A stretch of 64,000 nucleotides of DNA from Owenia fusiformis. Taxonomy: Eukaryota > Annelida > Polychaeta > Sabellida > Oweniidae. Position numbers and translations under genes: made by a program. The notes under the pieces are model-generated. The model did not search any database, was not told the origin of the DNA, and was given only the letters and a program-made list of their open reading frames with translations. The stretch is taken from positions 663,318 to 727,317 of the forward strand of contig CAIIXF020000012.1 of the NCBI GenBank assembly GCA_903813345.2, read 5' to 3'. This document shows, one piece after another, positions 3,001 through 57,895 of this stretch. Position 1 is the first letter of the stretch; every line of letters starts with the position of its first letter.

Positions 3001-6000
3001 ACAATATAAATGTGACAACAGTTGATATTCTCGCAAGGTGCCCTCAAGCCCCTGTTCCAAATCTTGGACAGCATGCTGCCCCAGCTGCCAGCAGTGTGCC
3101 CTCTAGTGGGGCCCCTGTTAACATGTCAATGGTTAGTGGAATGGATACTAGTGGTGCACCAAGTTCACAAATGGCTAACGCTTTTCCACCACACAGTATG
3201 CCCGCTTCTCAATCTGGAATACTCTCAACAGCTATGCCAGCTGCACCATCAAACATAGCTCCAGGGCAACCAGGTACAGCTCCAGGGCAACCAGGCATAG
3301 CTCCAGGGCAACCAGGCTTAGCTCCAGGGCAACCAAGCATAGCTCCGGGGCAACCAGGCATAGTTCCAGGGCAACCAGGCATAGCTCCAGGGCAACCAAG
3401 CATAACCCAAGTGCAACCAGGAGCTCCAGATGATGATGATGATTTTGCAGATTTCCAAGCAGCCCCAACTCCCACTTTGCATCAATCAAGTGAGTGTACA
3501 TATACACCATACATGTACATGTACCTTTTACATGTACATTTTACATGTACCTTTAACATGTACATTTTACATGTACCTTTTACATGTACCTTTTACATGT
3601 ACATTTTACATGTACCTTTTACATGTACCTTTTACATGTACATTTTACATGTACCTTTTACAGGGCGTTCAGTAAGTAAAGCTAATTTTGCTCTCAAACT
3701 TTTATTTTTTGTCATTTATCTTTCAAATTTTCAGTGAAGAAGCATTCGACATTTTTCTAACTACCCTGAAAAATTAAATAAGATATGATGAATAATAGCA
3801 AAACAATGGTTGTCATAGTAACGTGAATACGGGTTCTGCGGAGCAATTTCTTACTTTAATAAAAGTGTTATAATGCAATGAAATTGATTAAGATTAATGC
3901 TGCATATGTCTTTGTTTGCTATGGCTGAAAGTCACGACAAACATAACAACATTCACAAATATGATACCATGGCAACAGTAGTCTATGACATCACAGACAG
4001 ATGATACAACAGATGGAATGATTCAGAATGATCCATCAGACACTGCTCCATGACATCATCAAAATCATGGCTGCCAGGATTGCCAATGGAAGCAAAATGA
4101 ACAATGAAATGAAACAACAATTGAGAAGTAGCATTAGATACAATGTGTTGCTAGGGAAATCCAAGCAGGATACCATTAGGGATATCCAAAAAGCATATGG
4201 GGACAGTGTGCCTAAGTACACAATCTACAAATGGTATCAGAAATTCCAAAAGGGGAGAAAAGCAACAAGTGATGAGCCAAGGTTTGAAAAATGATCTGCG
4301 TGGTAAGATCCACGCAAATATCCATGAGCTTCAGAATGCTGTTCAATGTTCGCTGACAAAGAACTTTCCAGATGGCTTCCACAGGATATATCAGAAGTGG
4401 ATAGAACGACATCAGCTGTGTGTGAAAGCTAAGGGGAACTACTTTGAACATGAAATAGAATGCGAACTTGAAAGTAGAAATGTGGAGTAGCCACAGAACT
4501 ATGGTTGAAATATAGACAGGACAGAAACTAACGTTAACAAAATCTACTATGCTGTGAACTTAAAAAATTGCTCCGCAGAACCCGTATTCGCGTTACTATG
4601 ACAACCACCATTTTGCTGTTATTCATTATATCTTGATCATGTTTTCAGGATAGTTAGAAAAGTGTCTGATGCTTCTCCACTGAAAATTTGAACGATGATA
4701 GACAAGAAATAAAAGTTTGAGAGCAAAATTAGCTTTACTTACTGAACGCCCTGTACATGTACCTTTTACCTGTACATTTTACATGTACCTTTTACATGTA
4801 CCTTTTACATGTACATTTTACATGTACATTTTACATGTACCTTTCACATGTACCTTTAACATGTACATTTTACATGTACCTTTTACATGGACATTTTACA
4901 TGGACATTTTACATGCTTGATGTTTTGCTTATGCTTTGGTAAAGAAACATATGGTGACTTTGAAATATCACCCATTAGGTTAGACTTAGACAAAATACTA
5001 CTTTTGCAGGCTGTGATGCTTTGTGCTTTTAGCTGGATAGCATAATAGTTAACATGGCTTTAGAATATACAAAGTAATCTGTAATTTGAGACACCTCCTA
5101 CAGGATAATTTGGGAGCCGCATTGTGCATTTATTAATAAGGATACGGTGTAATATAAAAAACACAAATTATTATTCCTTTCATACTGTTACCTTCTACAG
5201 ATAAAGAGTTATTTTCTATTTTAAGGTTCCTTTGGAGATTTCACACAAGTTTCTTCTGGTGCAAACACCCAACCTCCAGGATCAAGTATTCCACCACTAG
5301 GTACAACTCTGCAAACTCAAACAAACACATTTCCAAAGATTTCCTCTGAGTCGGATCTTCTTGGTGCTGAGGATAAATATGCATTTCTTCGCAGTATGGA
5401 TTCTAGTAAGAACTATTTAATAATAGTGAGGAGACGTAGTATGGTTCAGGGTTGGTTGGGAAATTTTTTTTAAAATGAATAAAAAGAAAATTGGCACAGT
5501 ATAGTTTACAGGGTTAGTTTGATCAAAGAAGTAGAAGCGATAGCGAATATAGGGGAAAGAAGCATGCCAACGTTTCCCTAAGGGTTCCTAATTTTTTCTG
5601 AAAAATATATCTAATCTAATATTGAAGTTATTGAGTATTTAAGATGCAGAAATGTTCAAATTCATATAGAAATGCCCTCTAGGTTTGACTTTGATGTTGA
5701 GTACAAAAAACTATCAAAAATTCATCTAAAGTGGTCTTGTCCCCTCTGCAGAGACATTCTGTTATTTATTGTCATAACACCACAAGGATCACCATTAAAA
5801 TAATTGCCAAAATGTGTATTCTGTTACAGGTCCCCCAGCACCCAAACAACCAATAGATGGCTCTGCTACATTGCCGGAAATACCAAAACTTGCGCTGGAT
5901 TCTCCAGTTTCCAAAACTAGTCCTGAGAGTCCAGATGACTTCGCCAATTTTGAGAAATATTCAGAAGCGGTCATCAAAGGAAATTTGGATGTGTTGAAGG

Positions 6001-9000
6001 GGTCTGATGTTGATTCCCCTCGAAGTGTAGAAAGTGATGAAAATGAAATGTTTAAACGTATAAAACACGAGAAACTTATGCAAAAGAAAATGGCTGCCTC
6101 AACGGCTTCGACAGAAGACTGGGCAGACTTCCAAACTTGCGACATTCCAGAACCAGCGGCTAAAAAAAGCGAAGTGCCAAAATTTGATAAAATGTCAATA
6201 TTGCAAAAGTTCAACGAACCCCCTCCAAAGCCTATAAAATTAGACCAAGCAGAGGATGATGTTAACCCCTCCACAAGTGATCAACAAGACGATGACGATT
6301 GGGCAAATTTTGAAAGTGCACCCCCTGTTCCTCCCATTTCAACTAACAACCTCACCATCACTAGAAAACAGAAATATCCCAAAATGGATGATGACCAATC
6401 CAAAGTGGAAAATAACTTCTCCAGTAATAATGACAATTCTGATTTTGGTGCTTTTAGTATGGTGCCTCCTCCAATGCAGAGTCAGTCATCACCACCTAAA
6501 ACTCGTAGAATGTCATCTAAAACTCGCCTTCCAAGCTTGGACGATGACAGTCCTATGTTTGAACCACCCCCATTTGAACAAGAAGGTGAAAGTCACACAG
6601 CTGGAGTTTTTGGCGATTTCTTTTCGACTGATCCGGATGCTCAACCTAATAAACACCTGGAGGACATGTTTGAACCAAAACCAAAACCCAAAAAACAAAT
6701 ACCTAATCGAAATACAACGAAACCTGAGAATCAAGTTGATATGACTGAATTTACTTCTCATTTACATACAAGCGCTAGTGGTCCTGAACTTTATAATCTT
6801 GATACTGTTAAGCTTCGGAAAGATGGCGCTGGGGATAGCCAATCAGTATCTAGTTTAGAGCTTCCTCCATTCCATAACCAATCAAAAGCCTTAAAAGAAG
6901 ATAACCAATCAGTGTCTAGCCTTGAGTTCAAAACAAAAGTCTCGTCAAAAGAGGGTAGCGTGGATAACCAATCAGTGTCCAGTTTTGAGTTTCAAGATCG
7001 TAAACCAAGTATAAGTCAGGACAATAAATCTGTTGGAAGCTTGGACTTCAAAGGGCCTCCTGATGAAGCGACATCTGGTGTAGAAAATGGAAACTCTGAA
7101 GCAGACGACAATTTTGGAGATTTCAGTGTGGCACCCCCTCCTTTACCAGGTAAATCAGTTATGATATTATCCTGTCTTGGAGACCAATAAAGAAATAGTT
7201 TAGCTAAAATACAAAATGAAGTATGTTCCGAGAAATGGTATTTACTGGGTATAGGGACAGATATTCACTAGGTAGAGGTGTTCATTAGGGAGAGGTGTTC
7301 ACCTGAGACAGGTGTTCACTAGAGAAACGTATTCACTAACTGACATTAACCTTTAAGGGAACAACTTATTTCCGAAAATCCACCAAAAATTCCATTAATA
7401 ACACATATTGTACAAAAAGTCATCTTCGCTTGTTTAATTCATGTGTGTAACTGTGGTTTTAGTGTTGCCAACTGGGGCCCCAAAGTCTGCTACTGAAGTG
7501 ATGAGTGAGTCTGGACCACAGATTGGTGTAGACAGATACAGTTCTATAATGCATGATGTACAGGTAAGGTGACAATGTTATAGATTGGTGTAGACAGATA
7601 CAGTTCTATAATGCATGATGTACAGGTAAGGTGACAATGTTATAGATTGGTGTAGACAGATACAGTTCTATAATGCATGATGTTCAGGTAAGGTGACATT
7701 GTTATAGATTGGTGTAGACAGATACAGTTCTATAATGCATGATGTACAGGTAAGGTGACAATGTTATAGATTGGTGTAGACAGATACAGTTCTATAATGC
7801 ATGATGTACAGGTAAGGTGACAATGTTATAGATTGGTGTAGACAGATACAGTTCTATAATGCATGATGTACAGGTAAGGTGACAATGTTATAGATTGGTG
7901 TAGACAGATACAGTTTTATAATGCATGATGTACAGGTAAGTTGACAATGTTATAGATTGGTGTAGACAGATACAGTTCTATAATGCATGATGTACAGGTG
8001 AGGTGACAATGTTATAGATTGGTGTAGACAGATACAGTTCTATAATGCATGATGTACAGGTAAGGTGACAATGTTATAGATTGGTGTAGACAGATACAGT
8101 TCTATAATGCATGATGTACAGGTAAGGTGACATTGTTATAGATTGGTGTAGACAGATACAGTTCTATAATGCATGATGTACAGGTAAGGTGACAATGTTA
8201 TAGATTGGTGTAGACAGATACAGTTCTATAATGCATGATGTACAGGTAAGGTGACAATGTTATAGATTGGTGTAGACAGATACAGTTCTATAATGCATGA
8301 TGTACAGGTAAGGTGACAATGTTATAGATTGGTGTAGACAGATACAGTTCTATAATGCATGATGTACAGGTAAGGTGACAATGTTATAGATTGGTGTAGA
8401 CAGATACAGTTCTATAATGCATGATGTACAGGTAAGGTGACATTGTTATAGATTGGTGTAGACAGATATAGTTCTATAATGCATGATGTACAGGTAAGGT
8501 GACAATGTTATAGATTGGTGTAGACAGATACAGTTCTATAATGCATGATGTACAGGTAAGGTGACAATGTTATAGATTGGTGTAGACAGATACAGTTCTA
8601 TAATGCATGATGTACAGGTAAGGTGACAATGTTATAGATTGGTGTAGACAGATACAGTTCTGTAATGCATGATGTACAGGTAAGGTGACAATGTTATAGA
8701 TTGGTGTAGACAGATACAGTTCTATAATGCATGATGTACAGGTAAGGTGACAATGTTATAGATTGGTGTAGACAGATACAGTTTTATAATGCATGATGTA
8801 CAGGTAAGGTGACAATGTTATAGATTGGTGTAGACAGATACAGTTTTATAATGCATGATGTACAGGTAAGGTGACAATGTTATAGATTGGTGTAGACAGA
8901 TACAGTTCTGTAATGCATGATGTACAGGTAAGGTGACAATGTTATAGATTGGTGTAGACAGATACAGTTCTATAATGCATGATGTTCAGGTAAGGTGACA

Positions 9001-12000
9001 TTGTTATAGATTGGTGTAGACAGATACAGTTCTATAATGCATGATGTTCAGGTAAGGTGACATTGTTATAGATTGGTGTAGACAGATACAGTTCTATAAT
9101 GCATGATGTACAGGTAAGGTGACAATGTTATAGATTGGTGTAGACAGATACAGTTCTATAATGCATGATGTACAGGTAAGTTGACAATGTTATAGATTGG
9201 TGTAGACAGATACAGTTCTATAATGCATGATGTACAGGTAAGTTGACAATGTTATAGATTGGTGTAGACAGATACAGTTCTATAATGCATGATGTACAGG
9301 TAAGTTGACAATGTTATAGATTGGTGTAGACAGATACAGTTCTATAATGCATGATGTTCAGGTAAGTTGACAATGTTATAGATTGGTGTAGACAGATACA
9401 GTTCTATAATGCATGATGTACAGGTAAGGTGACATTGTTATAGATTGGTGTAGACAGATACAGTTCTATAATGCATGATGTTCAGGTAAGGTGACAATGT
9501 TATAGATTGGTGTAGACAGATACAGTTCTATAATGCATGATGTACAGGTAAGGTGACATTGTTATAGATTGGTGTAGACAGATACAGTTCTATAATGCAT
9601 GATGTTCAGGTAAGGTGACAATGTTATAGATTGGTGTAGACAGATACAGTTCTATAATGCATGATGTACAGGTAAGGTGACATTGTTATAAAGGGATGTA
9701 GTTTTAGTTTAATCTGTATGTGGCTTAGATCACAGATGAAGATAAACCATTTGTTTGAGAGAGTATGTGTCAGTGGAAATATAAAAAGTCAAATTCCTAT
9801 TCAAAATTCTTCCTACATGCTCAATGTTTAGGAAAAGGATGGGAACTGTAATAGGAAGTATATTCCTCAATGGGCTACTGATCCTTTTTAAAATTTACAT
9901 TTTGACAGAGGAGAGGTATTCAACTATACACTAAATATTTGAATCATTCTTTCTCTGCTTAAGCTGTTCTCAGAATGTCCATTCAGTTTTTAGGCACAAA
10001 ACTCATTCCAATTTGCTTTTTCTCTATTTTGTGTGATTTATATAACAAAAACACAACTGTGCATTAAGATCCTTTTTTATAAATTTATCTATTCATTGTA
10101 AAAAGAATACAACCAAGCTTACATGTCATGGTGGCTGTACCTTGTGATGTACAGTTACAATATTAAGTATTCAATCAATAATAATTCAATATAATAATAT
10201 AAATAAAATGCCAAAACAGAGATACAATAGAAAATGAAGATAAATGTTCAATACAATTGAAATTTTCTCTGATGCATGTTGTGTAGGTCAAGGATGGAAA
10301 CTGCAATGGAAAGTTTCATGTATCCTTAAAGTTGTGAACATTACAATTTTATCCCACCAAACGTAGTTCCAGAGGGATATAGGGAAGCCGTCCATCTGTC
10401 TCTCTGTCTGTCCATCCATCTGTTTATTTGTTTGTACATCTGTCCGAGCAATAACTCAAATACCGATTGATGGATGGGTTCAAATTTCATAGGCTAATGC
10501 CCCCAGGAGAGAATTTTCAAGATGGCCACTGAATAGTCTAGATGTGAGTAGAAATAATCTTGATTTACGTCATTGAAAATTCAATCAAAGTGATATTATA
10601 TTTGAAATCTACTTGTAAAATTACATCAAGAAATGTGGTTACAAAAATTGTTTATCAACTTTGAAAAATGAATTTTCTTTAAAAATGTGACTTCTTAGTC
10701 GGGGAGATTCCCCATAGACCCCATGTTATAAAATCACAAAAAGCTGTTCCTCTATTACATGCATTTTTTCAAAACATATCTTGTACACACAAAATATCAT
10801 AGTACTAAAATATTAGTACTTTAAAAAGTATTAGTATTTCAAAAAGGCCTTAGTTAAATGTCCTGTTTAAGAACCCCTATTCTAACTTTCGAAAATGGAT
10901 TCTAGCAATACTATCCAACAGGAATCTACGTGTTAAGATTCAATCAACTTGAGATCTTCTGAGAAAATGTGGATTTCAGCAAGGGTGCATTGATTTAATG
11001 TGGTGACATATATATGATGGTATCCCAATGCCAAGTCATTGGTCAATGGTGTATGTCCCCATGTTGAGTCAAAACACCCTTGCTAAAATCATTATTTTCT
11101 CAGAAAAATTCAAGTTGATTGAGTCTCAACAAGTAGATTCATGTTGGATAGCTATATTTCTAGAATCCATTTTTAATAGATAGAATAGGGTTCTTAAATA
11201 GGACATTGGACTTGCTTTTTAGAACTTTTTGTTAGTATATGTTTTAGATAAAACATCCAACAATTTTTATACATTTTTACTTATATACATTTTGTATATA
11301 TTTTTAATTATGATTATACATTTTGTATACATTTTTACTTATACATTTTGTATGCATTTTTACTTATACATTTTTAATTATACATTTTGTATACATTTTT
11401 ACTTATACATTTTGTATACATTTTAATTATATGCAAATTTGGATTCACATTCTTTTTTTATATTTTCATAGTTTAACTAAATAATTACATGTATAATTTT
11501 GGTCTTTAAAGACTTATAAATACATGTGAACATATTGGATGAGAAAAAGTCTCTATATGTGTGCTAACTCCTGTTAACGCCTAAAAGTGGGACATGGTTC
11601 AGGTTACATGTAAACTAACACAAGAATGGATTATTATTTTATTTCAATAATTTAGAGCACCAAGTGAACCATTGATAATTGATACTCACACTGATATTGT
11701 ATATTTAGTGGTATTTAATCCGAGTGGTTAATTTGACGAATGGTCAAATTTTATCATTTTCCTAATGACAAGAAACTTCCCTTTAGATAACATTATGAGG
11801 ATAATATTTCTGACTTTTCATTTTCCAAACCTGGAAAAAATTAGGCAATAGGCAGATTAAGTGATTAGGTAAAATTAGCACTTATACAGTACATCTTAAC
11901 AAAAACCATCAGATTTGGAAACATTATAGGTGATTCAAGATGCATTGAACAGATATCTTTAACTACTAGTATTATTCAAAGCATATATCTTATTCCCTAT

Positions 12001-15000
12001 TTTTTACCATGTTCAGAAAATTAAATGTCTGACAAATTATCTTTATAATGTTATCCAATGGGAAGTTTCTTGTCATTAGGAAATTAAAATTAGGAAAATG
12101 ATAAAATTTGACCAATCGGAAAATTAACCACTCGGATTAATTACCACTTATACAGTATTATTCAAAGCATATATTTTATATTCATTGCTATGTATCTTAT
12201 ATTCCCCAAATGCATGCATTACTATTGTTGATATGTATTTTGTAATGCATAAAAACAAGAGGATGTAGAACATAATCCTTGTTTTCTTACCCTTGATGTC
12301 AACTAAGTCAGGTCGGACATCAGGATCACATAAAATAGTAGAAAAAGCCTATCAGTTCCATTGTATGAAATGATATGCTTGAAACCCCAAAGGCTAAATA
12401 AAACTTTTGTTCATTTGCTACATCAACTGATTTTATCATACCATGCAATACTAGCAAGGGAGAGTAATGAACTGGTAATATACATAACATACAAATCAGC
12501 CGTACTATCAAGCTCCATGGGATTTTAGCAAAACAAACTACATGCCAAAAGAACAAAACGCATGTAGAAAATATGGTAAGACAAGTATAATAGGGAGGCA
12601 TATTTAATTCGCTATACATGTATATTATAATATGAAAGATAAACATTGGAATATACAGTATACCCATGAGTATAAACAGGCACCGGTATAGACTTTTAGC
12701 ACAGCATGACCTTTCTTTTGTTACACACTCATTTCCCATTTCTGGAATTTGCTCTGATACGCTGTATATTCGTAATGCTATACCTTTGCAATTTTCTGTT
12801 TTAGTACGTGCGTCTGATAAGCTGTTACTATGGACAGATAATTTCTTTTTTAACTTACATAAAACCTTTGCAAATGCCTCTCTCTGGGCAGTCAAATAAC
12901 CTTTGATGCTATCACACTTCATATTTTTTTATGCAAATTGGCACTATTTAATTTGATGTGTCTTTATTTATATATATATGACACTTTTCATTTACTAGAC
13001 TTTTATAGCAATTCCTTAAATACCATATGTAATTGCTGGTGACAGATATTAAAATTGCAGAATTAATGAAAATAAATTAAAATATAGGCCTATACCTAAT
13101 ATAATGATTTCCACAGTTAAATTGACTATTCACAATAAGTTTTATGGAAATATTTCATATTTTCAGGGATGATTCTTTGTACAAAAATCTTGAACTGATA
13201 GGCTTTTGGGCATTTTGGGTAAATGTTAAGGAGGCCATTTTAGATTTCTGTCCTCAAATCTTGTCTGAAGTATTGTTTACAAGTTTTCAGGTGAACCATT
13301 CAATGGATTGATTTCAATTTTTCAGGGATGATTTTCTGATGAAAATCTTGAAATGATAAGTTTTTGGGCATTCTTTGTAAATGTTAAGGTGCCATTTTGG
13401 ATTTTTTGTCCTAATATCTTTTTTGTAAAGTTTTGTGTGTGCCTTTTCAGGTGAACTGTTTGATGGATCCATTTTAAATTTTCAGGGATGATCCTTTGTA
13501 TGAAAATGTCAAAGTGATTAGCTTTTGGGCGTTCTGGGTAAATGGTAAGACAGCAATTATTGATTTTTTGTCCTAAGATTTTGTCTCTTCAACTGATTAG
13601 TGTTGGGCATTTTGGAGGAAAAGTCTACAGGATCAGGATCACCCATTGGTACATGTTATACATGTTTGTGTTCTTGTCTCATAGTATTATTCACATATAT
13701 TTTGAATTCATCGCTATGTATCTTATATTCCCCTAAGGCATGCATTACTATGTTTGATACGTATGTTGTAATGCATAAAAACATGATGATGTAGTACATA
13801 ATCCAGAACATAATCTTTGTTTTCTTACCCATAGTATCATTGGGATAAACTGCAGCTGAAATGGAAAAGAATGTCAGTTCTATTGTATAAATGGATATGC
13901 TTGAAATTCCAAAGATTAAATAATACTTTTGTTGATTTGCTACATCATCAATTTCTATTTCTATAACACCATCCATTACTAACCAGGGATGGTAATGAAA
14001 TGGTATCACCCACATAATTCTAAGTAGCAATGGTACATATATCGAGAGCATCCAGGACAATGGGGATTTCGAACAAAAAAGCACAAAAAAGTAAGAAAAT
14101 GGGAGGAACATACCCATCAAAATCTTATAAATGCAAATACTAGTAGAGTGATTTAAATTGACTATTTCAATAATATGGAAGAGATATGATGCAGGCCAAA
14201 GAATAGCTGCAGTAATAAAGAAAATTAGTGGACCCATGCAACCGAATAGACAATTGACACAGCGACACTCCTTTTTTGTTTCAAGACTTTGCTTTGATAT
14301 TGGTTCAGGAATCTGGTCTGGTACAGTTTCAGGAATTTGCTCTGATACGCTGTATACTGTCTGTTTACTTTGTACAGATAATTTATTTTTTAACCTACAT
14401 AAAACCTTGGCAACTGTCTCTCTCAGAGTAGTCAAATAATCTTTGATGCGATCACACTTCATATTTTTTCATGTAAATTGGCACTATTTAATTTGATGTG
14501 TCTTATGACACTTTTCATTATTTACAAGACTTTTATCTGTTTATAGCAATTCCTTAAAATCAAATGTTGACCTTTGTGCTAGTGAAAGTGTGTGTGATAA
14601 TGATTTTGATTTCCACACTGTTAAATTGACTACGTGTATTCTCAATAAGTCTTTGTATAGGCTGTTTACCTAATTTCATTTATATGTTTTAGGCCGTAGC
14701 TCTATACTTATTATATTTAGGTATATGTTCAGTCTTAAAGTGGTGTAATGACCCTCGAAAGCAAGATGCTACTACAGTCTCGGCTGTACTGGCTAGCTCC
14801 TTTGGCTAAAGCAGTAGAGTGTCAGACTTGTGAGCGGAGGGTCCCGGGTTCGATTCTTGTACGGGGCATTGAATTTAGCACACTCCCTTTCATGTCTAGT
14901 ATCTAGCTCGTTACACTACAGCTTCAGGGTCACCCAGGGTCGTTACAGTACTATATTCCCTTATATATTATGTGCTCTGCTCTGCAAAAATCCAAGTTAT

Positions 15001-18000
15001 GTCTCAGTGTTATAATGTTGTCTGGATAATCCAAGTTATGTCTCAGTGTTATAATGTTGTCTGGATAATCCAGGTTATGTCTCATTCATGTCATTGTTCT
15101 GAATTATGTCCTCTAAATCATCCAATGAAACACTCGGGCTAATGGCAATATGTTTATGTTATGTTTGTTTATTGTTTCCAGAATAAGAAACTATTCTTGC
15201 AGAAACTGTTCTTACAGATATAATGGAGCATCAATTGTCCAAATCTATAATCATATTTTCAATTAATCTGTTGTTTTATTTGCTCATGCATAGATGCGTT
15301 TATTCCAATTTTATGTGGTTTTTTCAGTTGTAATTTCTTCTTTCCCACTGCAAATGTTGTACTATGAAATTATTCTGTATATTTAAGCATATACTTTTAG
15401 GTATATTTAGGTATTTTGTCCAAATCCTACAAAATAATGTAGCTAAAAGTCTATTGCGCAGTATCCGTTTACTATGGTTACTATGGTGATGCTGATGAAT
15501 CAATATGAATACCTAGACGCCAGACACCTGCAGATAAAATAAACAACCAGTTTTTTATTTTATTAAATAAGCATTGGCAAGTAGAGAGATATGACAAGGA
15601 CAGGGAATTATTGCATGAAACAAATACGTCGATAACTTAAAAAGTGAATTGAATAAGGTTATTCACATTTTAAGAGAAATACCATGAAATAAGCAAATAC
15701 TCATTGGGTCTGTTTTACAAACGGGAATTTTTTTATGTTTTACCTGGAGGTTCAGAAGTTCAAGGTCATTGCTAACCAATGAAATTAGAGAATAAAACAA
15801 GGATGTAAACACAAATATTGTTGAATAGAAAAACTATCATCCATCATTATCAATTAGACCAAATTTATAAACAGTGTAATATGAAATGATACACCTGGTT
15901 CATTCTGTTTAGCTTAAAAAGCTGCACAAATGAGAGCTTCAAATAAATTGCATAATTTGTCCTAAGGTTTCAATATACCATTGGAAATGTAAGAATCTCA
16001 GCTTTATGGATGTGACTTGTTTTTGTTTTTTACTTCATAAATGTGACCTGTTCGTCGATGCTCTTTGGTTACAAAGTTGAATAATATTCCCTTTCAATAA
16101 AAAGGGTATAGTGATAAAAGAAATAATAATTTTTAAACCATAATTTTAAGTTGAATGTCCATACTAACAAATGTAATGATCTAAGCAATATAGCAGTAGG
16201 CCTAGTATGTTTGACCTTTGAAGTTTGCCTTTTACCCAGAGGCCTAAAAATATATTATAAAATGCATATTTCTATATATAGATGACATGAATTTGTTTAA
16301 TAATCTGGTTTGTGTCACTGATTTGGGATTAAATGTACGTATTCAAAATGATTAAAATATGTTTTGTTTGTTGGGATTTACTACTCCCTTGAGTTGCCGA
16401 TTTATAGTAGAAATATGGTTTGTTAAATATTTAATAGAGTGCCATCACAATAATTTCCACACAAAAGGTACACATTAATACACATTAATATTATGCATAT
16501 TTTTATATAATTCTAGGATCAGGACAGACACGCTGTCGAATGGGAGAAGTGTCTAATATAATGAATATATTATAATTCTATTTGTCTAATGATATATGTT
16601 AAAGATTTAATAGAGTGCCATCACAATAATTTCCACACAAAAGGTACACATTAATACACATTAATATTATGCATATTTTTATATAATTCTAGGATCAGGA
16701 CAGACACGCTGTCGAATGGGAGAAGTGTTCATTATGTACATATTAATATATTCTAGGATCAGGATAGACACACTGTTGAATGGGAGAAGTGTCTAATATA
16801 ATGAATATAATATGATTCTAGGATCAGGACAGACATGCTGTTGAATGGGAGAAGTGTCTAATATAATGAATATAATATAATTCTAGGATCAGGACAGACA
16901 TGCTGTTGAATGGGAAAAGTGTCTAATATAATGAATATAATATGATTCTAGGATCAGGACAGACATGCTGTTGAATGGGAAAAGTGTCTAATATAGTGAA
17001 TATACAGTAAAACCTGAGTTAGTGAACACATCTCTCTAGTGAACACCTATTAACAGTGAACGTTTTTATTTGGCAAAATCTTTTTCTCCCATTGACTCCC
17101 ATGTTAAAGTGCAATCCTATAGTGAACACCTACCAACTATGAACAGTGAACACTAAACCCTGGCAAAATCAATTGAATTATCCTGTCTCTAGTGAACCTT
17201 GAATCAGATATAAGATTTCTCGCGGATTTTCTGCAACTGCCTTATCAGAGTTAAGCAGTTTATATTTATATTACCTGCCAAAAATAATTAAAAGGTCAAT
17301 TTGAGATCTTGATCTCTTCTATTGAAACAGGTGTGACTAATTATAATTCTTAATAAGCTTTGTTTTTGTTACAAAGGATATGCGTCTGGGATTGATTGCT
17401 TGGAGATAATCTGGCTAACTATTATTACCTCTATCTGCTAAGTCCCAACTTAATCTTTTTTCTCATCCCGTCAATTTAAAAAAACGATTGGATCAAAATT
17501 ATAATTCATGATCATTTCACTATTAACTGCATCTATCATGTCTATCATAATTCAATAAAGTCCTTTAACTGACTCAAATGTCTCAAAAATTCCACTATTT
17601 AAAGGACCATCTTGATGAGATAAAAAGAATTATATAGAGATAAAATTTGACAATAAAAGGATGAACCATTCAGATGACAGTCAGTCTAAAATAAGTCAAT
17701 TTGTATATATACTTAATACACGCTTGAGTGTCATGGGTTAATATGGGTAGAAAATACAATTTAAATTTATTATTGAAATATGAATATGTTTTAATTCTTT
17801 TTAAGACTCATTTTAGTTTGATAAAATGTGCTGTTTTAACCAACATGGAATTGTGGATATTTTTCGATTACATGCACCTTAATGTAAGAGTGCCACTGTT
17901 AAAAGAGTGTATATCTAAATAAATAAATAAATAAATATTCCCTCCTCTCTTTTAATAGCTGGTCTCTTTATATAATACGGCAAAATGCCGCGAAATCAAA

Positions 18001-21000
18001 CCATTGCTGTAGTGAACACCTACCAACAGTGAACATTTTTTCTTGGCAAAAAATTGTTCACTATACGCAGGTTTTACTGTAATATGATTCTAGGATCAGG
18101 ACAGACATGCTGTTGAATGGGAAAAGTGTCTAATATAATGAATATAATATGATTCTAGGATCAGGACAGACATGCTGTTGAATGGGAAAAGTGTCTAACA
18201 TAATAAATATAATATAATTCTAGGATCAGGACAGACATGCTGTTGAATGGGAAAAGTGTCTAATATGATGAATATAATATAATTCTAGGATCAGGACAGA
18301 CATGCTGTTGAATGGGAAAAGTGTCTAATATAATGAATATAATATGATTCTAGGATCAGGACCGACATGCTGTTGAATGGGAAAAGTGTCTAATATAATG
18401 AATATAATATAATTCTAGGATCAGGACAGACATACTGTTGAATGGGAAAAGTGTCTAATATAATGAACATAATATAATTCTAGGATCAGGACAGACATGC
18501 TGTTGAATGAAAAAGTGTCTAATATAATGAATATAATATAATAATAGACAATAATAATATAATATAATGAATATAATATAATTCTAGGATCAGGACAGAC
18601 ATGCTGTTGAATGAAAAAGTGTCTAATATAATGAATATAATATAGTTCTAGGATCAGGATAGACATGCTGTTGAATGGGAAAAGTGTCTAATATAATGAA
18701 TATAATATAATTCTAGGATCAGGACAGACATGCTGTTGAATGGGAGAAGTGTCTAATATAATAAATATAATATGATTCTAGGATCAGGACAGACATACTG
18801 TTGAATGGGAAAAGTGTCTAATATAATGAACATAATATAATTCTAGGATCAGGACAGACATGCTGTTGAATGAAAAAGTGTCTAATATAATGAATGTAAT
18901 ATAATAATAGACAATAATAATATAATATTATGAATATAATATAATTCTAGGACCAGGACAGACATGCTGTTGAATGGGAAAAGTGTCTAATATAATGAAT
19001 ATAATATGATTCTAGGATCAGGACAGACATGCTGTTGAATGGGAAAAGTGTCTAATGTAATGAATATAATATGATTCCAGGATCAGGATAGACATGCTGT
19101 TGAATGGGAAAAGTGTCTAATATAATGAATATAATATAATTCCAGGATCAGGATAGACATGCTGTTGAATGGGAAAAGTGTCTTATATAATGATGAATAT
19201 AATATGATTCTAGGATCAGGACAGACATGCTGTTGAATGGGAAAAGTGTTTATATAATGAATATAATTTAATTCTAGGATCAGGACAGACATGCTGTTGA
19301 ATGGGAAAAGTGTCTAATATAATGAATTTAATATGATTCTAGGATCAGGACCGACATACTGTTGAATGGGAAAAGTGTCTAATATAATGAATATAATATA
19401 ATTCTAGGATCAGGATAGACATGCTGTTGAATGGGAGAAGTGTCTAATATAATGAATATAATATGATTCTATCTAGGATCAGGACAGACATGCTGTTGAA
19501 TGGGAGAAGTGTCTAATATAATAAATATAATATGATTCTAGGATCAGGACAGACATACTGTTGAATGGGAAAAGTGTCTAATATAATGAACATAATATAA
19601 TTCTAGGATCAGGACAGACATGCTGTTGAATGAAAAAGTGTCTAATATAATGAATGTAATATAATAATAGACAATAATAATATAATATTATGAATATAAT
19701 ATAATTCTAGGACCAGGACAGACATGCTGTTGAATGGGAAAAGTGTCTAATATAATGAATATAATATGATTCTAGGATCAGGACAGACATGCTGTTGAAT
19801 GGGAAAAGTGTCTAATATAATGAATATAATATGATTCCAGGATCAGGATAGACATGCTGTTGAATGGGAAAGGTGTCTAATATAATGAATATAATATAAT
19901 TCCAGGATCAGGATAGACATGCTGTTGAATGGGAAAAGTGTCTTATATAATGATGAATATAATATGATTCTAGGATCAGGACAGACATGCTGTTGAATGG
20001 GAAAAGTGTCTAATATAATGAATATAATTTAATTCTAGGATCAGGACAGACATGCTGTTGAATGGGAAAAGTGTCTAATATAATGAATTTAATATGATTC
20101 TAGGATCAGGACAGACATGCTGTTGAATGGGAAAAGTGTCTTCAAAGCTGCTGTGATGTCATCACTAACGCAAACAGCACGTTCAACTCTGTAAGCAGTA
20201 GTGCAGTGTGCAGTGAAATTATTGGTTCTGAACAAGGAAAGGCATATCTAATTGGTGAGACCCAAATATACCTCTAACTAATTTGTATAAGGATTTCACT
20301 AAACCCTAAATACATGTTCTTTTCATTACTAGAAACTCCTTTCACCATAAAATGACTTTAGACCACAATTTTCATTAAATGAAAATATGCCCATTTACCT
20401 GAAAATATGCCCATATACCTGAAAATATGCCCATTTAACTGAAAATATGCCCATTTAACTTTGTACTTCATTGCCTTCCAGGAATAGTAGAGATATACAG
20501 GGTGGTTTGTAAGATCAACTTGGCTATAAAGATGTTTGCTATCCACAATGACAATCTATCGATGGTCCTCAAGAATATAGACCTAAACTGGAACAACCTG
20601 ACTGCATTCATTGCAGGCAACCCGATAATGGTAAGATTTGAATATAGACCTAAACTGGAACAACCTGACTGCATTCATTGCAGGCAACCCGATAATGGTA
20701 AGATTTGAATATAGACCTAAACTGGAACAACCTGACTGCATTCATTGCAGGCAACCCGATAATGGTAAGATTTGAATATAGACCTAAACTGGAACAACCT
20801 GACTGCATTCATTGCAGGCAACCCAATAATGGTAAGATTTGAACACTATGCGTAGGTTTATCTTGGATAAATCATTCTAAATGTGCAGAAAAACTAATAT
20901 GAAGCAATAACTCAAATACTGTTGGCCCAATTTTGTTCATATTTTGTACAAATATGTCCTATTGGAGTTGAAGTTCTGCTCAAACGTGTCAAAAGCAGAT

Positions 21001-34045: not shown

Positions 34046-34073
34046 TTACTGTAGTAAGATTTTCACTATAATA

Positions 34074-35847
34074 TTGGAGATGTGTTTTATAATATTGGGG
34101 ATGTGTTTTATAATATTGGAGATGTGTTTTATAATATTGGAGATGTGTTTTATAATATTGGAGATGTGTTTTATAATATTGGAGATGTGTTTTATAATAT
34201 TGGGGATGTGTTTTATAATATTGGAGATGTGTTTTATAATATTGGAGATGTGTTTTATAATATTGGGGATGTGTTTTATAATATTGGAGATGTGTTTTAT
34301 AATATTGGAGATGTGTTTTATAATATTGGGGATGTGTTTTATAATATTGGAGATGTGTTTTATAATATTGGAGATGTGTTTTATAATATTGGGGATGTGT
34401 TTTATAATATTGGAGATGTGTTTTATAATATTGGAGATGTGTTTTATAATATTGGAGATGTGTTTTATAATATTGGAGATGTGTTTTATAATATTGGAGA
34501 TGTGTTTTATAATATTGGGGATGTGTTTTATAATATTGGAGATGTGTTTTATAATATTGGGGATGTGTTTTATAATATTGGGGATGTGTTTTATAATATT
34601 GGGGATGTGTTTTATAATATTGGGGATGTGTTTTATAATATTGGAGATGTGTTTTATAATATTGGAGATGTGTTTTATAATATTGGGGATGTGTTTTATA
34701 ATATTGGAGATGTGTTTTATAATATTGGAGATGTGTTTTATAATATTGGGGATGTGTTTTATAATATTGGGGATGTGTTTTATAATATTGGAGATGTGTT
34801 TTATAATATTGGAGATGTGTTTTATAATATTGGAGATGTGTTTTATAATATTGGAGATGTGTTTTATAATATTGGGGATGTGTTTTATAATATTGGAGAT
34901 GTGTTTAATAATATTGGGGATGTGTTTTATAATATTGGAGATGTGTTTTATAATATTGGAGATGTGTTTTATAATATTGGGGATGTGTTTTATAATATTG
35001 GAGATGTGTTTTATAATATTGGGGATGTGTTTTATAATATTGGGGATGTGTTTTATAATATTGGAGATGTGTTTTATAATATGTGTTTTATAATATTGGA
35101 GATGTGTTTTATAATATTGGAGATGTGTTTTATCATATTGGGGATGTGTTTTATAATATTGGGGATGTGTTTTATAATATTGGGGATGTGTTTTATAATA
35201 TTGGAGATGTGTTTTATAATATTGGAGATGTGTTTTATAATATTGGGGATGTGTTTTATAATATTGGAGATGTGTTTTAAAATATTGGAGATGTGTTTTA
35301 TAATATTGGAGATGTGTTTTATAATATTGGAGATGTGTTTTATAATATTGGGGATGTGTTTTATAATATTGGGGATGTGTTTTATAATATTGGAGATGTG
35401 TTTTATAATATTGGAGATGTGTTTTATAATATTGGGGATGTGTTTTATAATATTGGAGATGTGTTTTATAATATTGGGGATGTGTTTTATAATATTGGGG
35501 ATGTGTTTTATAATATTGGAGATGTGTTTTATAATATTGGGGATGTGTTTTATAATATTGGAGATGTGTTTTATAATATTGGAGATGTGTTTTATAATAT
35601 TGGAGATGTGTTTTATAATATTGGAGATGTGTTTTATAATATTGGAGATGTGTTTTATAATATTGGGGATGTGTTTTATAATATTGGAGATGTGTTTTAT
35701 AATATTGGAGATGTGTTTTATAATATTGGGGATGTGTTTTATAATATTGGAGATGTGTTTTATAATATTGGAGATGTGTTTTATAATATTGGGGATGTGT
35801 TTTATAATATTGGGGATGTGTTTTATAATATTGGGGATGTGTTTTTA
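34074..35847. repeat. 21-bp array, about 84 copies
   Basis: Unit GATGTGTTTTATAATATTGG plus A or G, differing almost only by GGA/GGG. Single variants are TTTAAT (34906), a 14-bp shortening at 35080, ATCAT (35132) and TTTTAA (35276). Because 21 is a multiple of three, frames of up to 614 codons run through on both strands; they are artefacts. The right flank holds GAGGTGTTCACT motifs as in Tigger-like ends. Confidence 0.97.
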
Positions 35848-42549: not shown

Positions 42550-45500
42550 CTATCCATCTGGTAGGTAGAGTTTTACTAAATGTTCCGTCTCTGTTGGGTA
42601 TGATGTCACTGGACACTTGTGGTTTTGTCTCACGTATTTGTAGATACATGGGTAGCAAAAGACAAATCTGAAACAAAGCACGTATTGCAGTGGAGTCCTT
42701 AAAATGACTACAATTTTAGTGAATCTTTATCCAAAAACTAATGAATTGATCGAACTATTCTACAATGCCTTGCAGATTTATGATATCAAAAAGGCATAAT
42801 AATGAACTAAATTGAACACATGTCAATATTTTGTGAGCACCCTATTGTATTGTCCGATTCAACACTATATTTAATATAGAATGTCCATCACTCACCCTGA
42901 TGTTGACAAGACTGTGTCATTTGTACGCTTTCTTTGACAAAGTGGACACAATGAAGGAATTCTGGGTAAAGCCGCATGTACAGTTTTCTGGAAAAAATTC
43001 AAAACAACCAAATGGCATAACTACACATACATTGTGACAACGTACTGTAAGTTGTACATACAGAACATTGTGACAACATACATTGTGACAACATAATAAT
43101 GTGTTTTGATCAGAGAATCTAGAATCTACAAATAGAACATATAAAATAAATTATAATAGATTCTGAGTGCAAAACAAATAATGAACAACTCATTAAATAA
43201 CGTAATGAAAATAAACAAACACAAATTAACATGGATTGTATAGAAATTTCAGTTTCTGCTATCACAAAGTGAATTTTGAAAATAAACACCCAGAATCTTA
43301 TGCTTACAGAAATATATCAATTACAACACTAAAACCTCTATATCCAAACACCTCTCTAATCTGAACACCTCTCAATATGAGCACTTTTTGTCTCATTTTT
43401 TATTTTGTCATAAATTACTGTAGATCCGTCAATTTAAGTAGCGTCAAAATAAGTGTATCTACAGTACCACATTAAAGAAAATATTTTGAAATGTAAAAAC
43501 CTACAAATCGAAACAGTTTTGGTCAGTCCTGAGATGATACTTCATCCTAGGCAAGTCCCATTGATGTTCCGATGATTTTACTGTATTGTAATTCATCAAA
43601 TAAAAGAAACATTGAAGATACCTTTGGGGAATTTGGCACTGGGAGGGCTGTGAGAGAAGTTGCATTACGGTCACTGGAATACCACCAATCCAGGAACTGA
43701 ATGAAGAACACCCCAACTGAGAGACTAGATGAGAGTCCAATTGCAAAACCTCCTAAAATTTTCCTGAGGAGAATTGGTATTCTTTGTGGGAAACTGAAAA
43801 CAAGCAAAAATGATCCAATAAAATATTTACATGTATCGTCAACTTATCTGCCCCATAGTCATGGGTGGGTTCTAGTTTTCTAGAGGGGGCTTTAAATTTC
43901 AATGCAGCTCAAAATTCTGCCAAAAAGGTAGTTTAATTATAAAGACGATTTATTGAAACATTTGACCAAAATATGCAAATCTGATTTGATTCTTTTATTT
44001 AACCGAACTGAAGATAATAATAAAATGGTTTAAAATTTTGTGAAACCATCATCTTAATGATAACATGTAGGAAAAATGCACAAACATTTCCTCACCTTAT
44101 GCCTAGAAGAAAATGCACCAACATTTTCCTACCTTATGCCAAGAAGAAAATGCACCAACATTTCCCTACCTTATGCCTTCTAAAGTCTTGACTGATCTTT
44201 CCCCTTGATGATGTGCCAGGTCAAACTCATCCATGTATCTCAGTTTAACTCCAGCCAGCTTCAACAAGGGAGAATGAATTTCAACTTTTCCAAAGATGTA
44301 TGCCATTTGGTAAGCAAATACAGAAGTCTCCCATGTCATGTGTAGATATGGATACACAGTGAGAAAGAGTCTCTTCAGCTGATCAAAGTATGTCTGAAAA
44401 TATTGCAGGAAATGTGAAGGACATATGAAATATTTGAAACAAGCCAAAATGTATTAATATGAGCTGTACTGCTTTATATACTGTACGCCTTTATATTTCT
44501 TACACAATTAAACCACAAAAAATCTAGTCTAAAAGTCTATGGTCTGACTAAGTCATCTCAATGCTTCAAGTATGGTGACATGTCAAACTTAGATAATCAT
44601 TGGCAAGGATTTCAAACCCTAAGTCTTGCATCAAGTTTGTGACCCCTCTTATGAATAAATGAGATTTGTTGAAGAGGGGGTTGTCACAAGGGCTTGATGC
44701 AAGACTGAACCTACCTTAGATCCTATAAGACCATCAGCCACTTGCTGTCGCAGGGATTCAAACATATTATCAAACTTCAACTTACAGTACTACCACCAAC
44801 CTACCTTGGATCCTATAAGTCCATCAGCCACTTGCTGTCGCAGGGATTCAAACATATTATCAAACTTCAACTTACAGTACTACCACCAACCTACCTTAGA
44901 TCCTATAAGGCCATCAGCCACTTGCTGTCTCAGGAATTCAAACATATTATCAAACTTCAACTTACAGTACTACCACCAACCTACCTTGGATCCTATAAGT
45001 CCATCTGCTGCTTGCTGTCTCAGGAATTCAAACATATTATCAAACTTCAACTTACAGTACTACCACCAACCTACCTTGGATCCTATAAGTCCATCTGCTG
45101 CTTGCTGTCTCAGGAATTCAAACATATTATCAAACTTCAACTTACAGTACTACCACCAACCTACCTTGGATCCTATAAGTCCATCTGCTGCTTGCTGTCT
45201 CAGGAATTCAAACATATTATCAAACTTCAACTTACAGTACTACCACCAACCTACCTTGGATCCTATAAGTCCATCTGCTGCTTGCTGTCTCAGGAATTCA
45301 AACATATTATCAAACTTCAACTTACAGTACTACCACCAACCTACCTTGGATCCTATAAGTCCATCTGCTGCTTGCTGTGGCAGGGATTCAAACACATTAT
45401 CCAACTTCAACTTACAGTACTGCCACACAACCTACAGTATATGATATAAACCATGGAATTCAATTTATATTCAAAATGGATGATTCAAACACATTATCCA

Positions 45501-47079
45501 ACTTCAACTTACAGTACTGCCACACAACCTACAGTATATGATATAAACCATGGAATTCAATTTATATTCAAAATGGATGAACAATATGTAAATTCTAGGT
45601 TAGGACATAACATCCATGAAATTTAAAATCATTAAAATGTATTCAATTAATACAATAAACAATGAATAATAATTTGATGATATGAGGTTTCAATTTGCAG
45701 TAGAACCTGTACATAGTGAACTCCTTTGTAGTCGCAAGAATTGTTCACAAAATGGAGGGTTTTTATTCAGGTGTCCAGAGAGTTTGTTTGAAAAAAGTGT
45801 TCACTATAGATAGGTGGTCACAAGGGTGTGGTGTTTAACTGTTTAATTTTAGAATTGTAATTCATGATATATTGCAAAAATTAAGACTTTGAAGCACAAC
45901 TTAACAAAAAATTTCAAAATCATTTCAAGTATTTATTTTATTTCAATCAGAGGGATGATATACTTTCAATCAAAAATCAATATAATTTATTTTAATGATT
46001 TATTTACCAAATACAATAGAGATTTCCCAATGGAGAACGAGCCTGCACTGGAAGTATCTGATGCATTACTAGCAGATTCATTTGAAGACATTGCAGGAAT
46101 ACGCTTCATTCCATAGAAATTCTCAGCAAAAGAGCCACCTGCAAATATGAGAGGTGCGAATATTAGAGGTACAGGAATATGATTCAAGACACTCCGGTTG
46201 TTAAGGAGGATCGGAATGATCACAAAGGAGGATCGGAATGATCACAATTGGTTTGATATAATCACACAATATGTATACTTTTGGAAAAATCTTATTTCCT
46301 ACAAATCAATATTGAGTGCTATTTTTTATTTTACAGTGGCAGTTGAAATAATGTGAGTCTCAACTGTTGGAACATTTTCAAAGCTTGGTGGAGGGCAACA
46401 TCCGTACCATATTTCCTAAGGTAGTGATTTTGAAGAACAATGTCAAGTATGGAATAAAGCTCATCATTGTATGCATAGAGCCAACCAAATCTTCCAGGAT
46501 TACTTTCAGCTAGAATCTACAAATAAAAAACAAGGCATTAACAGGCAAAATGCCACCACCTACCATTTGGTACATTTCTGAAATGGGTGTTTTCTTGTTC
46601 AAGACCTCATCATGTTCCTTTGGTGATGCATTAATTTCATTTGCACAATGTCCAAGGACCAGAAGTATTTCTTGTCAGAAGAAATGAATCAAAGAACTCA
46701 GGTACTCGTGGTAGCACGCCTTAAAAAGACTGCATAATAACAACTCTTCATCCCAGGTTAATAGTGTTTGTCTTCCTGTACTATACTCTAGAGTTGTATT
46801 AGACATATATTATTTGTTTTGCAGTAAAAAAATATAGAGTGATTGAACATGCTGAAAAAGTGACAAATTGAGCAAAATGAGTATGGAGATTTAGTAACTA
46901 ATAAAGAAATATCAAAGGTCCATTAAAACAAGTGACAATAAAATTTGATAGCTTACCCTTGAGGCATGTTTCAGAGCAGGTCTTATAGAAGTCATCAGAT
47001 TTTCTTGTGCAAGAACATCAAATATTGTTGGTTGGTCTTCAGCAGCAGCTGTTGTCAAATGTGCTGCAAACTCAGCCAT
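42550..47079 (-). CDS. PEX12: Peroxin-12, peroxisomal RING E3 ligase component, eight exons
   Basis: PEX12 is a peroxisomal membrane protein that forms a ubiquitin ligase with PEX2 and PEX10, recycling the PEX5 import receptor. Exons, reading leftward: 47079-46957, 46516-46408, 46138-46008, 45431-45345, 44393-44170, 43793-43622, 42987-42896, 42667-42550 (TAG). Phases all match; the product is 351 residues against about 359 in humans. It starts MAEFAAHLTTAAAEDQPTIF. Conserved blocks include NPGRFGWLY, FAENFYGMKRI, HSPLLKLAGVKL and SLSVGVFFIQFLDWWYSS. The C-terminal atypical RING has CPLCQRKRTNDTVLSTSG, FCYPCIYKYV and HKCPVTSYPTETEHL. The exon 45345-45431 is amplified in the following intron. 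No defect is visible in the joined frame. Confidence 0.95.
44170..44393 (-). CDS. PEX12: PEX12 exon 5 (single exon, part of the PEX12 entry)
   Basis: Encodes TYFDQLKRLFLTVYPYLHMT to the KTLEGI end and directly follows the amplified exon in the mRNA. Acceptor TATTTTCAG, donor AAGGTAGGG. Listed separately because its acceptor must pair with one of eight near-identical upstream donors. Confidence 0.9.
44711..45431 (-). repeat. PEX12: 90-bp array made of a whole PEX12 exon, eight copies
   Basis: The right end is the true exon 4 (acceptor ATACTGTAG, then VVWQYCKLKLDNVFES). Leftward, seven more copies of 90 bp end in ADGLIGSK plus donor GTAGGT. Each unit is the 87-nt exon plus about 3 nt: the donor runs straight into the start of the next exon copy (GTAGGTTGGTGGTAGTACTG). 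Reading past a donor gives V-G-W-W-stop. The two leftmost copies read ESLRQQVADGLIGSK, nearer to the vertebrate SLR than the FLRQQ of inner copies. Confidence 0.95.
45384..45582 (-). repeat. PEX12: Duplication of PEX12 exon-4 start with upstream intron, two copies
   Basis: About 98 bp (from ATTCAAACACATTATCCAAC through GTATATGATATAAACCATGG to AAAATGGATGA) is repeated directly at 45384 and 45482. The outer copy holds a second acceptor and the first half of the exon but no donor, so it is a decoy exon start. Confidence 0.9.
45695..45845. mobile_element. Tigger-like remnant
   Basis: GCAGTAGAACCTGTACATAG and later GTGTTCACTATAGATAGGTG are the opposite-facing terminal motifs of the CAGTAAAACCT elements, in a PEX12 intron. 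No intact right terminus. Confidence 0.5.
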
Positions 47080-55918: not shown

Positions 55919-56589
55919 GAAATATCTTTTCTTTTAGTGGACAGATAATATTTTGCTTTACTGGACATATTTTCATTAGTATAAGTATCAGACATATAAG
56001 GGTTATATGAAAATTGAGCCACCTAAATTGATAATATTCAAGTTTAAGGGAACTTTCTTATATACCTGCCATGTTAATTGACCCGAATCAGCCACCTGGT
56101 GGTGAAACTGGTAATTACCTACTCGCATTTGGGTAATTGCAAACACATGTGTCCACTTGACATGCACGTTTGCACTTAAAGGTTGCCTAATAATCTGAAT
56201 TAAAAATCACATCTGAGCAATTAATTGTTTATATGCATATATTATAAATCATTAATTAGATTCTAATGATTGTTTCTGTTTCGATGTGTGGTACTCTCTA
56301 TATTGGCAATAGTGTCTAATTTGACACATGGTCATACCAACCACAACATATACCCCCTCCCCCAACAGCCACCCTCCAACTGGTGCCCCTCCCCACAGTG
56401 CCATATTAATCAGATAATTCTTATTCCCAGTGTGAGCAAAGTGTTATATTTATATAAAACATATATGTGACCACCCATCAGGCCACCCATATGGCTGGAC
56501 TAAATTGGCAAATATTCCTAAAACAAGTGACAGATAATGGATTTTTTAACCAATTTTTATAATTTATAGTTTATGGCACTCGTCATGCA

Positions 56590-57895
56590 TTTTCAGACCT
56601 ATGAGTTGCTGATACAAACATTGTCTGACCTGTGAGTTACTAATACAAACATTGTCAGACCTGTGAGTTACTGATGCGAACATTGTCAGACCTGTGAGTT
56701 ACTGATGCAAACATTGTCAGACCTGTGAGTTACTGACACAAACGTTTTCAGACCTGTGAGTTACTGATACAAACATTGTCAGACCTGTGAGTTACTGATG
56801 CAAACATTGTCAGACCTGTGAGTTACTGACACAAACGTTTTCAGACCTGTGAGTTACTGATACAAACATTGTCAGACTTGTGAGCTACTGATACAAACAT
56901 TGTCAGACCTGTGAGTTACTAATAGAAACATTGTCAGACCTGTGAGTTACTGATACAAACTTTGTCAGACCTATGAGTTACTGATACAAACATTGTCTGA
57001 CCAGTGAGTTACTGATACAAACACTGTCAGACCAGTGAGTTACTGATACAAACTTTGTCAGACCTGTGAGTTACTGATACAAACATTGTCTGACCTATGA
57101 GTTTCTGATACAAACATTGTCTGACCTATGAGTTACTGATACAAACATTGTCAGACCTGTGAGTCACTGATTCAAACGTTGTTAGACCTGTGAGTTACTG
57201 ATACAAACATTGTCAGACCTGTGAGTTACTGATACAAACATTGTCAGACCAGTGAGTTACTGATACAAACTTTGTCAGACCTGTGAGTTACTGATACAAA
57301 CATTGTCTGACCTATGAGTTTCTGATACAAACATTGTCTGACCTATGAGTTACTGATACAAACATTATCAGACCAGTGAGTTACTGATACAAACATTGTC
57401 AGACCTGTGAGTTACTGATACAAACTTTGTCAGACCTATGAGTTACTGATACAAACATTGTCAGACCAGTGAGTTACTGATACAAACTTTGTCAGACCTA
57501 TGAGTTACTGATAGAAACATTGTCAGACTTGTGAGTTACTGATACAAACATTGTCATACCAGTGAGTTACTGATACAAACATTGTCAGACCTGTGAGTTA
57601 CTGATAGAAACATTGTCTGACCTGTGAGTAACTGATACAAACATTGTCTGACCTGTGAGTAACTGATAGAAACATTGTCAGCCCTGTGAGTTACTGATAG
57701 AAACATTGTCAGACCTGTGAGTTGCTGATACAAACATTATCAGACCTGTGAGTTACTGATACAAACATTATCAGACCTGTGAGTTACTGATACAAACATT
57801 GTCAGACCTGTGAGTTACTCATAGAAACATTGTCAGACTTGTGAGTTACTGATACAAACATTGTCATACCAGTGAGTTACTGATACAAACCTTGT
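56590..57895. repeat. 31-bp array, about 42 copies
   Basis: Unit TCAGACCTGTGAGTTACTGA followed by TACAAACATTG. Variants (CAGTGAG, CTATGAG, TAGAAAC, TCTGACC) recur in blocks, showing higher-order duplication. Confidence 0.95.

Follow-up and report, generated by a model that had tools for sequence, protein, structure and literature searches.

The stretch of DNA analysed here, 64,000 nt of the annelid Owenia fusiformis (G000:C12:663318-727317, in an assembly of 498 Mb; hereafter the window), contains one intron that begins with an array of donor sites and ends with an array of acceptor sites. The locus raises the question of which of these sites serve the gene, how the two arrays came to be there, and whether they stand alone in this genome. 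The host gene lies on the plus strand at the left of the window. We presume it to be SYNRG; a match to the EH domain in an early exon and sequence features typical of SYNRG fit that naming, and the gene is called SYNRG-like below. The coordinates of its arrays, and of others in the window, are collected in Table 1.

Table 1. Exons, arrays and an inserted element in the window (position 1 is the first nucleotide of the window; TRF, tandem repeat program output).
Feature	Position	Strand	Details
Upstream exon, SYNRG-like gene	7463..7563	+	open frame; TTTTAG on 5′ side, GTAAGG on 3′ side
Intron with an array at each end	7564..20103	+	12,540 bp; sole frame-keeping pairing of 1,260
Downstream exon	20104..20254	+	frame open up to next donor at 20255
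Donor array	7520..9690	+	35 copies, 62-bp unit; TRF 35.0 copies, 98% matches
Acceptor array	16510..20141	+	36 copies, 65-bp unit; acceptor + 38 nt exon start
Inserted element in acceptor array	17003..18081	.	~1.08 kb; 17-nt inverted ends, 94% complementary; TA at both edges
Donor array, next exon of SYNRG-like gene	20573..20843	+	4 copies of 67 bp; TRF 4.0 copies, 99%
Donor array, PEX12-like gene	44708..45435	-	~8 copies of 90 bp; TRF 8.1 copies
Acceptor duplication, PEX12-like gene, exon of the 90-bp donor array	45385..45580	-	two copies, 97 bp; TRF 2.0 copies, 100%
Donor array, PEX12-like gene, later exon	44073..44178	-	~3 copies of 37 bp; TRF 2.9 copies

At the left end of the intron, each donor unit consists of the last 44 nt of the exon followed by the first 18 nt of the intron, copy 1 being the exon's own end, and GT is intact in all 35 copies, in agreement with the original prediction of about 35 donors. 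The right end, as also predicted, consists of tandem copies of an acceptor with its exon start; the exonic length of 38 nt holds, but there are 36 copies rather than about 37. AG is intact in every one of these: the proposed acceptor, TTCTAG, is borne out as far as CTAG in 32 copies, while the other four have CCAG. In four copies, a single base pair is deleted from the exonic sequence (a 1-bp deletion). The first exon-start copy is found at 16517 and the last, the functional one, at 20104; position 16438, formerly taken for the start of the array, falls in older intron sequence, which occurs a second time about 176 bp downstream. Donor unit and acceptor unit have nothing in common beyond a 7-bp chance match, and they do come, as had been proposed, from unrelated sequences.

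Every pairing of a donor with an acceptor was translated, and a single one out of 1,260, donor 1 with acceptor 36, keeps the frame; joined in silico in this way (7563 to 20104), the upstream and downstream exons give one continuous protein reading. With donor 1, the 35 upstream acceptors lead to a stop at codon 15 (29 acceptors), codon 9 (four), codon 18 (one) or codon 29 (one), so that the expected stop within 15 codons occurs in 33 of the 35. The “must” of the original prediction, on use of the last acceptor, is a reading-frame argument: this acceptor belongs to the sole frame-keeping pair, and it is from the reading frame alone that we infer use of the outermost donor and the outermost acceptor.

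The acceptor array is heterogeneous along its length. Its divergence is greatest far from the exon, copies 1–3 having 3, 5 and 4 mismatches to the 38-nt exon start and copies 34–36 none, although the gradient is uneven. A block of ten units (about 760 bp) occurs twice, from 18710 and from 19470, with few differences; the functional acceptor is unit ten of the second block and differs from its partner unit at two positions, so that the exchange extended to the functional end of the array. Between copies 6 and 7 sits the inverted-end element, and part of the array is therefore older than this insertion. Elsewhere in the SYNRG-like gene there is an open frame (4022-4294) that may be likened to the helix-turn-helix region of mariner-like transposases.

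Counting periods of at least 25 bp, the window holds 16 array clusters, or 15 when the split acceptor array is taken as one, and five of the 15 are on splice sites. In the array of the next SYNRG-like exon, the 67-bp unit joins 58 nt of exon end to 9 nt of intron start, the exon's own end being at 20630. The PEX12-like gene has a Pfam Pex2_Pex12 match in an exon neighbouring the one with the 90-bp donor array. Uniqueness of the SYNRG-like array was ruled out by these further arrays in the window and by those in the sampled genes described below. The window also contains repeats of other sorts. At 56588-57895, near a FAM101-like gene, a 31-bp unit is repeated 42 times and, read on the minus strand, includes a motif resembling an acceptor; an exon was sought at the end of this array and none was seen. 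At 34067-35845, a 21-bp unit is repeated 85 times and leaves several frames open on both strands. A coding repeat of eight 21-bp copies (3254-3421; APGQPG-like) is in frame within a SYNRG exon and keeps the frame, unlike the junction arrays, which break it.

When the whole assembly was searched with the two unit queries, in a search that ignores very common words and thus gives lower bounds, at least 36 and 35 matches were obtained, all of them inside the SYNRG-like locus. Related copies dispersed in the genome, by which a mobile element or introner would be recognised, were not seen for either unit in this lower-bound search.

For other genes, loci were sampled by protein family, blind to arrays, from the best-scoring matches only (30 myosin, 30 kinesin, 20 TCP1), 236 kb in total. 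The myosin sample comprised 24 regions (85,645 bp) with 18 arrays, the kinesin sample 26 regions (88,755 bp) with 16 and the TCP1 sample 18 regions (61,652 bp) with 14. We judged 18 of the 48 arrays to span an exon end (five myosin, seven kinesin, six TCP1), mostly by eye, and two more to be borderline, with little exon or no GT in their units (kinesin C7:28062563 and TCP1 C11:140870). Most arrays have few copies, and the splice site is lost in the decoys, that is, the non-functional copies, of C10:4882710 and C11:140870. Clear examples include 17 copies at the start of a kinesin exon (C10:6043502) and arrays at the acceptors of KIF2-like and KIF3-like exons and at the donor of a KIF5-like exon; protein names more specific than a Pfam family are presumptive. 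At G000:C2:23266000-23269700 (L091), a 159-bp unit that joins an acceptor to 127 nt of kinesin exon start, more exon than in any other of these arrays, is repeated about 18 times; this array came from the match table and is excluded from the 48. Myosin array L022:2031-3237 (G000:C4) has ten copies of a 122-bp unit comprising nearly a whole exon with short intron pieces, some copies containing TAG and the end of the array lying beyond the locus limits, while myosin array L033 has two open frames. Junction-spanning arrays are common in the Owenia fusiformis genome.

The same searches gave some observations on the gene families themselves. On C9 (G000:C9:37986009-37994334), 12 separate, unevenly spaced matches to myosin head positions ~18-84 lie within 8.3 kb; this cluster looks like a large set of alternative muscle-myosin exons and not a mirage, the term being explained below. 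A muscle myosin fragment scored 229 bits against entries presumably from scallop, while human myosin-7 and an entry presumably from squid each gave 205 bits. The erythrocruorin linker family, that of the annelid haemoglobin linker, is matched three times, in a cluster on C6 (best E 5e-7). A weak search of the assembly for a GFP match gave none, which does not imply absence. GC content lies at 31–37%. Taken together, these observations speak for an annelid host and do not support amphioxus.

Across the genome, a pattern of three spaced donor octamers was matched 411 times and its reverse 64 times. The pattern serves well for finding arrays but is weak as a statistic, since its matches crowd into a few large arrays and the list of places is confined to the first ones. 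Single octamers outside arrays were equally frequent (7 donor, 8 reversed, in 264,471 bases). Among the donor-octamer matches listed, there are seven places, on C1-C3: four run into an exon-like open frame (L034, L036, L038 and L039), L035 lies in the intron just downstream of an exon, and at L037 and L040 no exon was seen. At L036:1407-1601 and G000:C1:53780640-53784944, an exon whose frame stays open for long is accompanied by a donor array in which a 48-bp unit recurs dozens of times within some 4 kb.

Whether exon–intron junctions are preferred sites was assessed with 263 splice sites placed automatically from the family matches, the expectation being obtained by rotating the sites within their regions (5,000 trials). 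Plain coverage of splice sites by arrays, at 2/90 in myosin, 2/96 in kinesin and 6/77 in TCP1, is not higher than array coverage of all bases (8.5%, 6.0% and 8.4%, respectively). Since a functional site can only occupy an edge copy, sites covered by the edge unit of an array were scored, a choice made after the plain-coverage result. On this scoring, 10 of the 263 sites were covered against 4.2 expected, and 10 or more were reached in 30 of the 5,000 trials; roughly 4% of these sites (95% interval 2–7%) lie in an array edge. TCP1 drives the excess (7/77 against 1.8; 0/5,000 trials), which is absent in myosin (1/90 against 1.0) and kinesin (2/96 against 1.5). Arrays are perhaps enriched at junctions; they are so dense throughout the genome that a good part of the junction arrays is what chance would produce.

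We also compared the exonic parts of decoys with the functional copy. In a first set of 13 arrays (one without changes; mismatch limit 20%), 36 of 67 changes were synonymous against 18.4 expected, the excess lying mainly in those shared by several decoys (21/31 against 8.1), with 9/19 against 5.3 among singletons and 6/17 against 4.9 among those fixed in all decoys. In a second set of 12 arrays (two without decoys; mismatch limit 25%), the excess was not replicated (19/66 against 19.0). Arrays L013, L022, L033, L039, C7:28062563 and the PEX12 37-bp array were left out because the frame or the functional copy was uncertain or because very little of the unit was exonic. As the first set was picked for clear frames, we do not rely on its excess, and that decoys inherit exon variation is unproven.

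Minisatellites across exon–intron borders have been described from amphioxus as “mirages”, with units given as 10–72 bp in Adh3 and 150–160 bp in globins, and with globin haplotypes of 6 and 3 units; RT-PCR suggested normal splicing (PMC3087553). PGBD5 is added as a mirage gene, with troponin C cited, in PMC3902484. The Owenia fusiformis arrays resemble them in several ways. Their units span the border at 5′ and 3′ ends, here with 44 nt of exon and 18 nt of intron at the donor and 38 nt of exon at the acceptor; they are of minisatellite size (62, 65, 67, 90, 97 and 37 bp); many copies carry AG or GT, with 35 GT and 36 AG in one intron; and, as in the amphioxus description, copies diverge and are homogenised in blocks (PMC3087553). 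The ten-unit block duplication, a recent one, would lend indirect support to a length instability of the mirage type, between haplotypes or in the soma. The present intron differs in being arrayed at both ends, with 35 + 36 copies against the 6 and 3 units given for globin, and in its annelid host; it is read here from the sequence of one assembly. In the open-licence literature searched, we found no report of mirages outside amphioxus. Earthworm metallothionein genes are comparable in being annelid genes with intronic minisatellites and with exon duplications missing from the transcript, but their monomers average about 180 bp, and the description at hand does not state that they span splice sites (PMC12783039). 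The SYNRG-like intron is a genuine case of this known kind, of unusual size and with an array at each end. The original prediction was right about one intron, two arrays and an outermost pair, and overlooked both their wide occurrence and the amphioxus precedent.

Arrays such as the SYNRG-like ones are most likely minisatellites of the mirage kind, in which a junction duplication expanded into the intron and was tolerated through use of the outermost site. The starting event would be a local tandem duplication across the exon–intron junction; slippage or unequal exchange would then expand the unit into the intron, independently at each end. The spliceosome would pick the outermost donor and acceptor, in keeping with exon definition, and all other copies would be removed with the intron. 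Because the outermost site would be the one used, the arrays could persist as tolerated passengers, while selection on the mRNA would purge arrangements that use a decoy. Such an origin is supported by the single viable pairing out of 1,260, the block duplication reaching the functional acceptor, the matching of the units, in the lower-bound search, at their own locus only and a comparable structure in other genes (18 of 48 arrays, four of seven donor-pattern places), as well as by the amphioxus precedent with RT-PCR suggesting normal splicing (PMC3087553).

The apparent edge excess at junctions (10/263 against 4.2), which TCP1 alone of the three families shows, is not predicted by chance and tolerance only. 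It could mean that junctions are true hotspots, either because duplication begins more often there (e.g., through co-transcriptional breaks) or because exon-anchored arrays persist by exchange with a conserved copy. The 411 against 64 octamer triplets, with single octamers outside arrays even at 7 and 8, and the synonymous changes of the first set (36/67 against 18.4) point the same way; the excess is, however, missing in myosin and kinesin, the octamer matches come in clumps from a small number of large arrays and the second synonymous set is at expectation, and we regard hotspots as a possibility on the doubtful side.

The decoys might instead be functional, recruiting splicing factors or tuning the splicing or expression of the gene, as retention of GT in all 35 donors and of AG in all 36 acceptors could suggest; the donor copies are about 98% alike, so that this conservation may merely reflect recent spread, and with few copies in most arrays and the splice site lost in the decoys of two of them, such a role is improbable. 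Misassembly that made the arrays or inflated their copy numbers has to be considered where a single assembly is the source, but copies with their own variants, a nested block duplication, an inserted element and a like anatomy in many unrelated genes make it very improbable. Tandem alternative exons, some of them spliced in, come to mind from myosin array L022, where nearly a whole exon is repeated, since muscle myosin genes are expected to contain mutually exclusive exons, clusters of which, too, repeat exon sequence in tandem within a gene. In those clusters, however, each copy is a whole exon that has its own pair of splice sites and keeps its frame open, whereas the units of the SYNRG-like intron hold one splice site and 1,259 of the 1,260 pairings break the frame; this explanation is scarcely credible for it.

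Beyond the mirage-kind origin itself, we put forward, as a tentative proposal with less than even prospects, that in a non-chordate, here an annelid, minisatellites preferentially arise or find refuge at junctions (at a few percent of splice sites), that some exon ends exchange with untranslated decoys and so evolve in concert with an intronic array, and that the spliceosome reliably takes the outermost of dozens of equal sites. The SYNRG-like case probably lies in a phylum for which there was no earlier mirage report among those we found, and their being common in an annelid would mean that mirages are not an amphioxus oddity. They bear on the growth and origin of introns, and they will cause errors in gene prediction and in splice mapping from short reads. 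The main value of the SYNRG-like intron is as a ready-made test: with dozens of near-identical rival donors and acceptors and one viable, outermost pair, it sets exon definition against intron definition in a natural experiment, in which choice of the nearest pair across the intron predicts use of the innermost sites and exon definition predicts use of the outermost.
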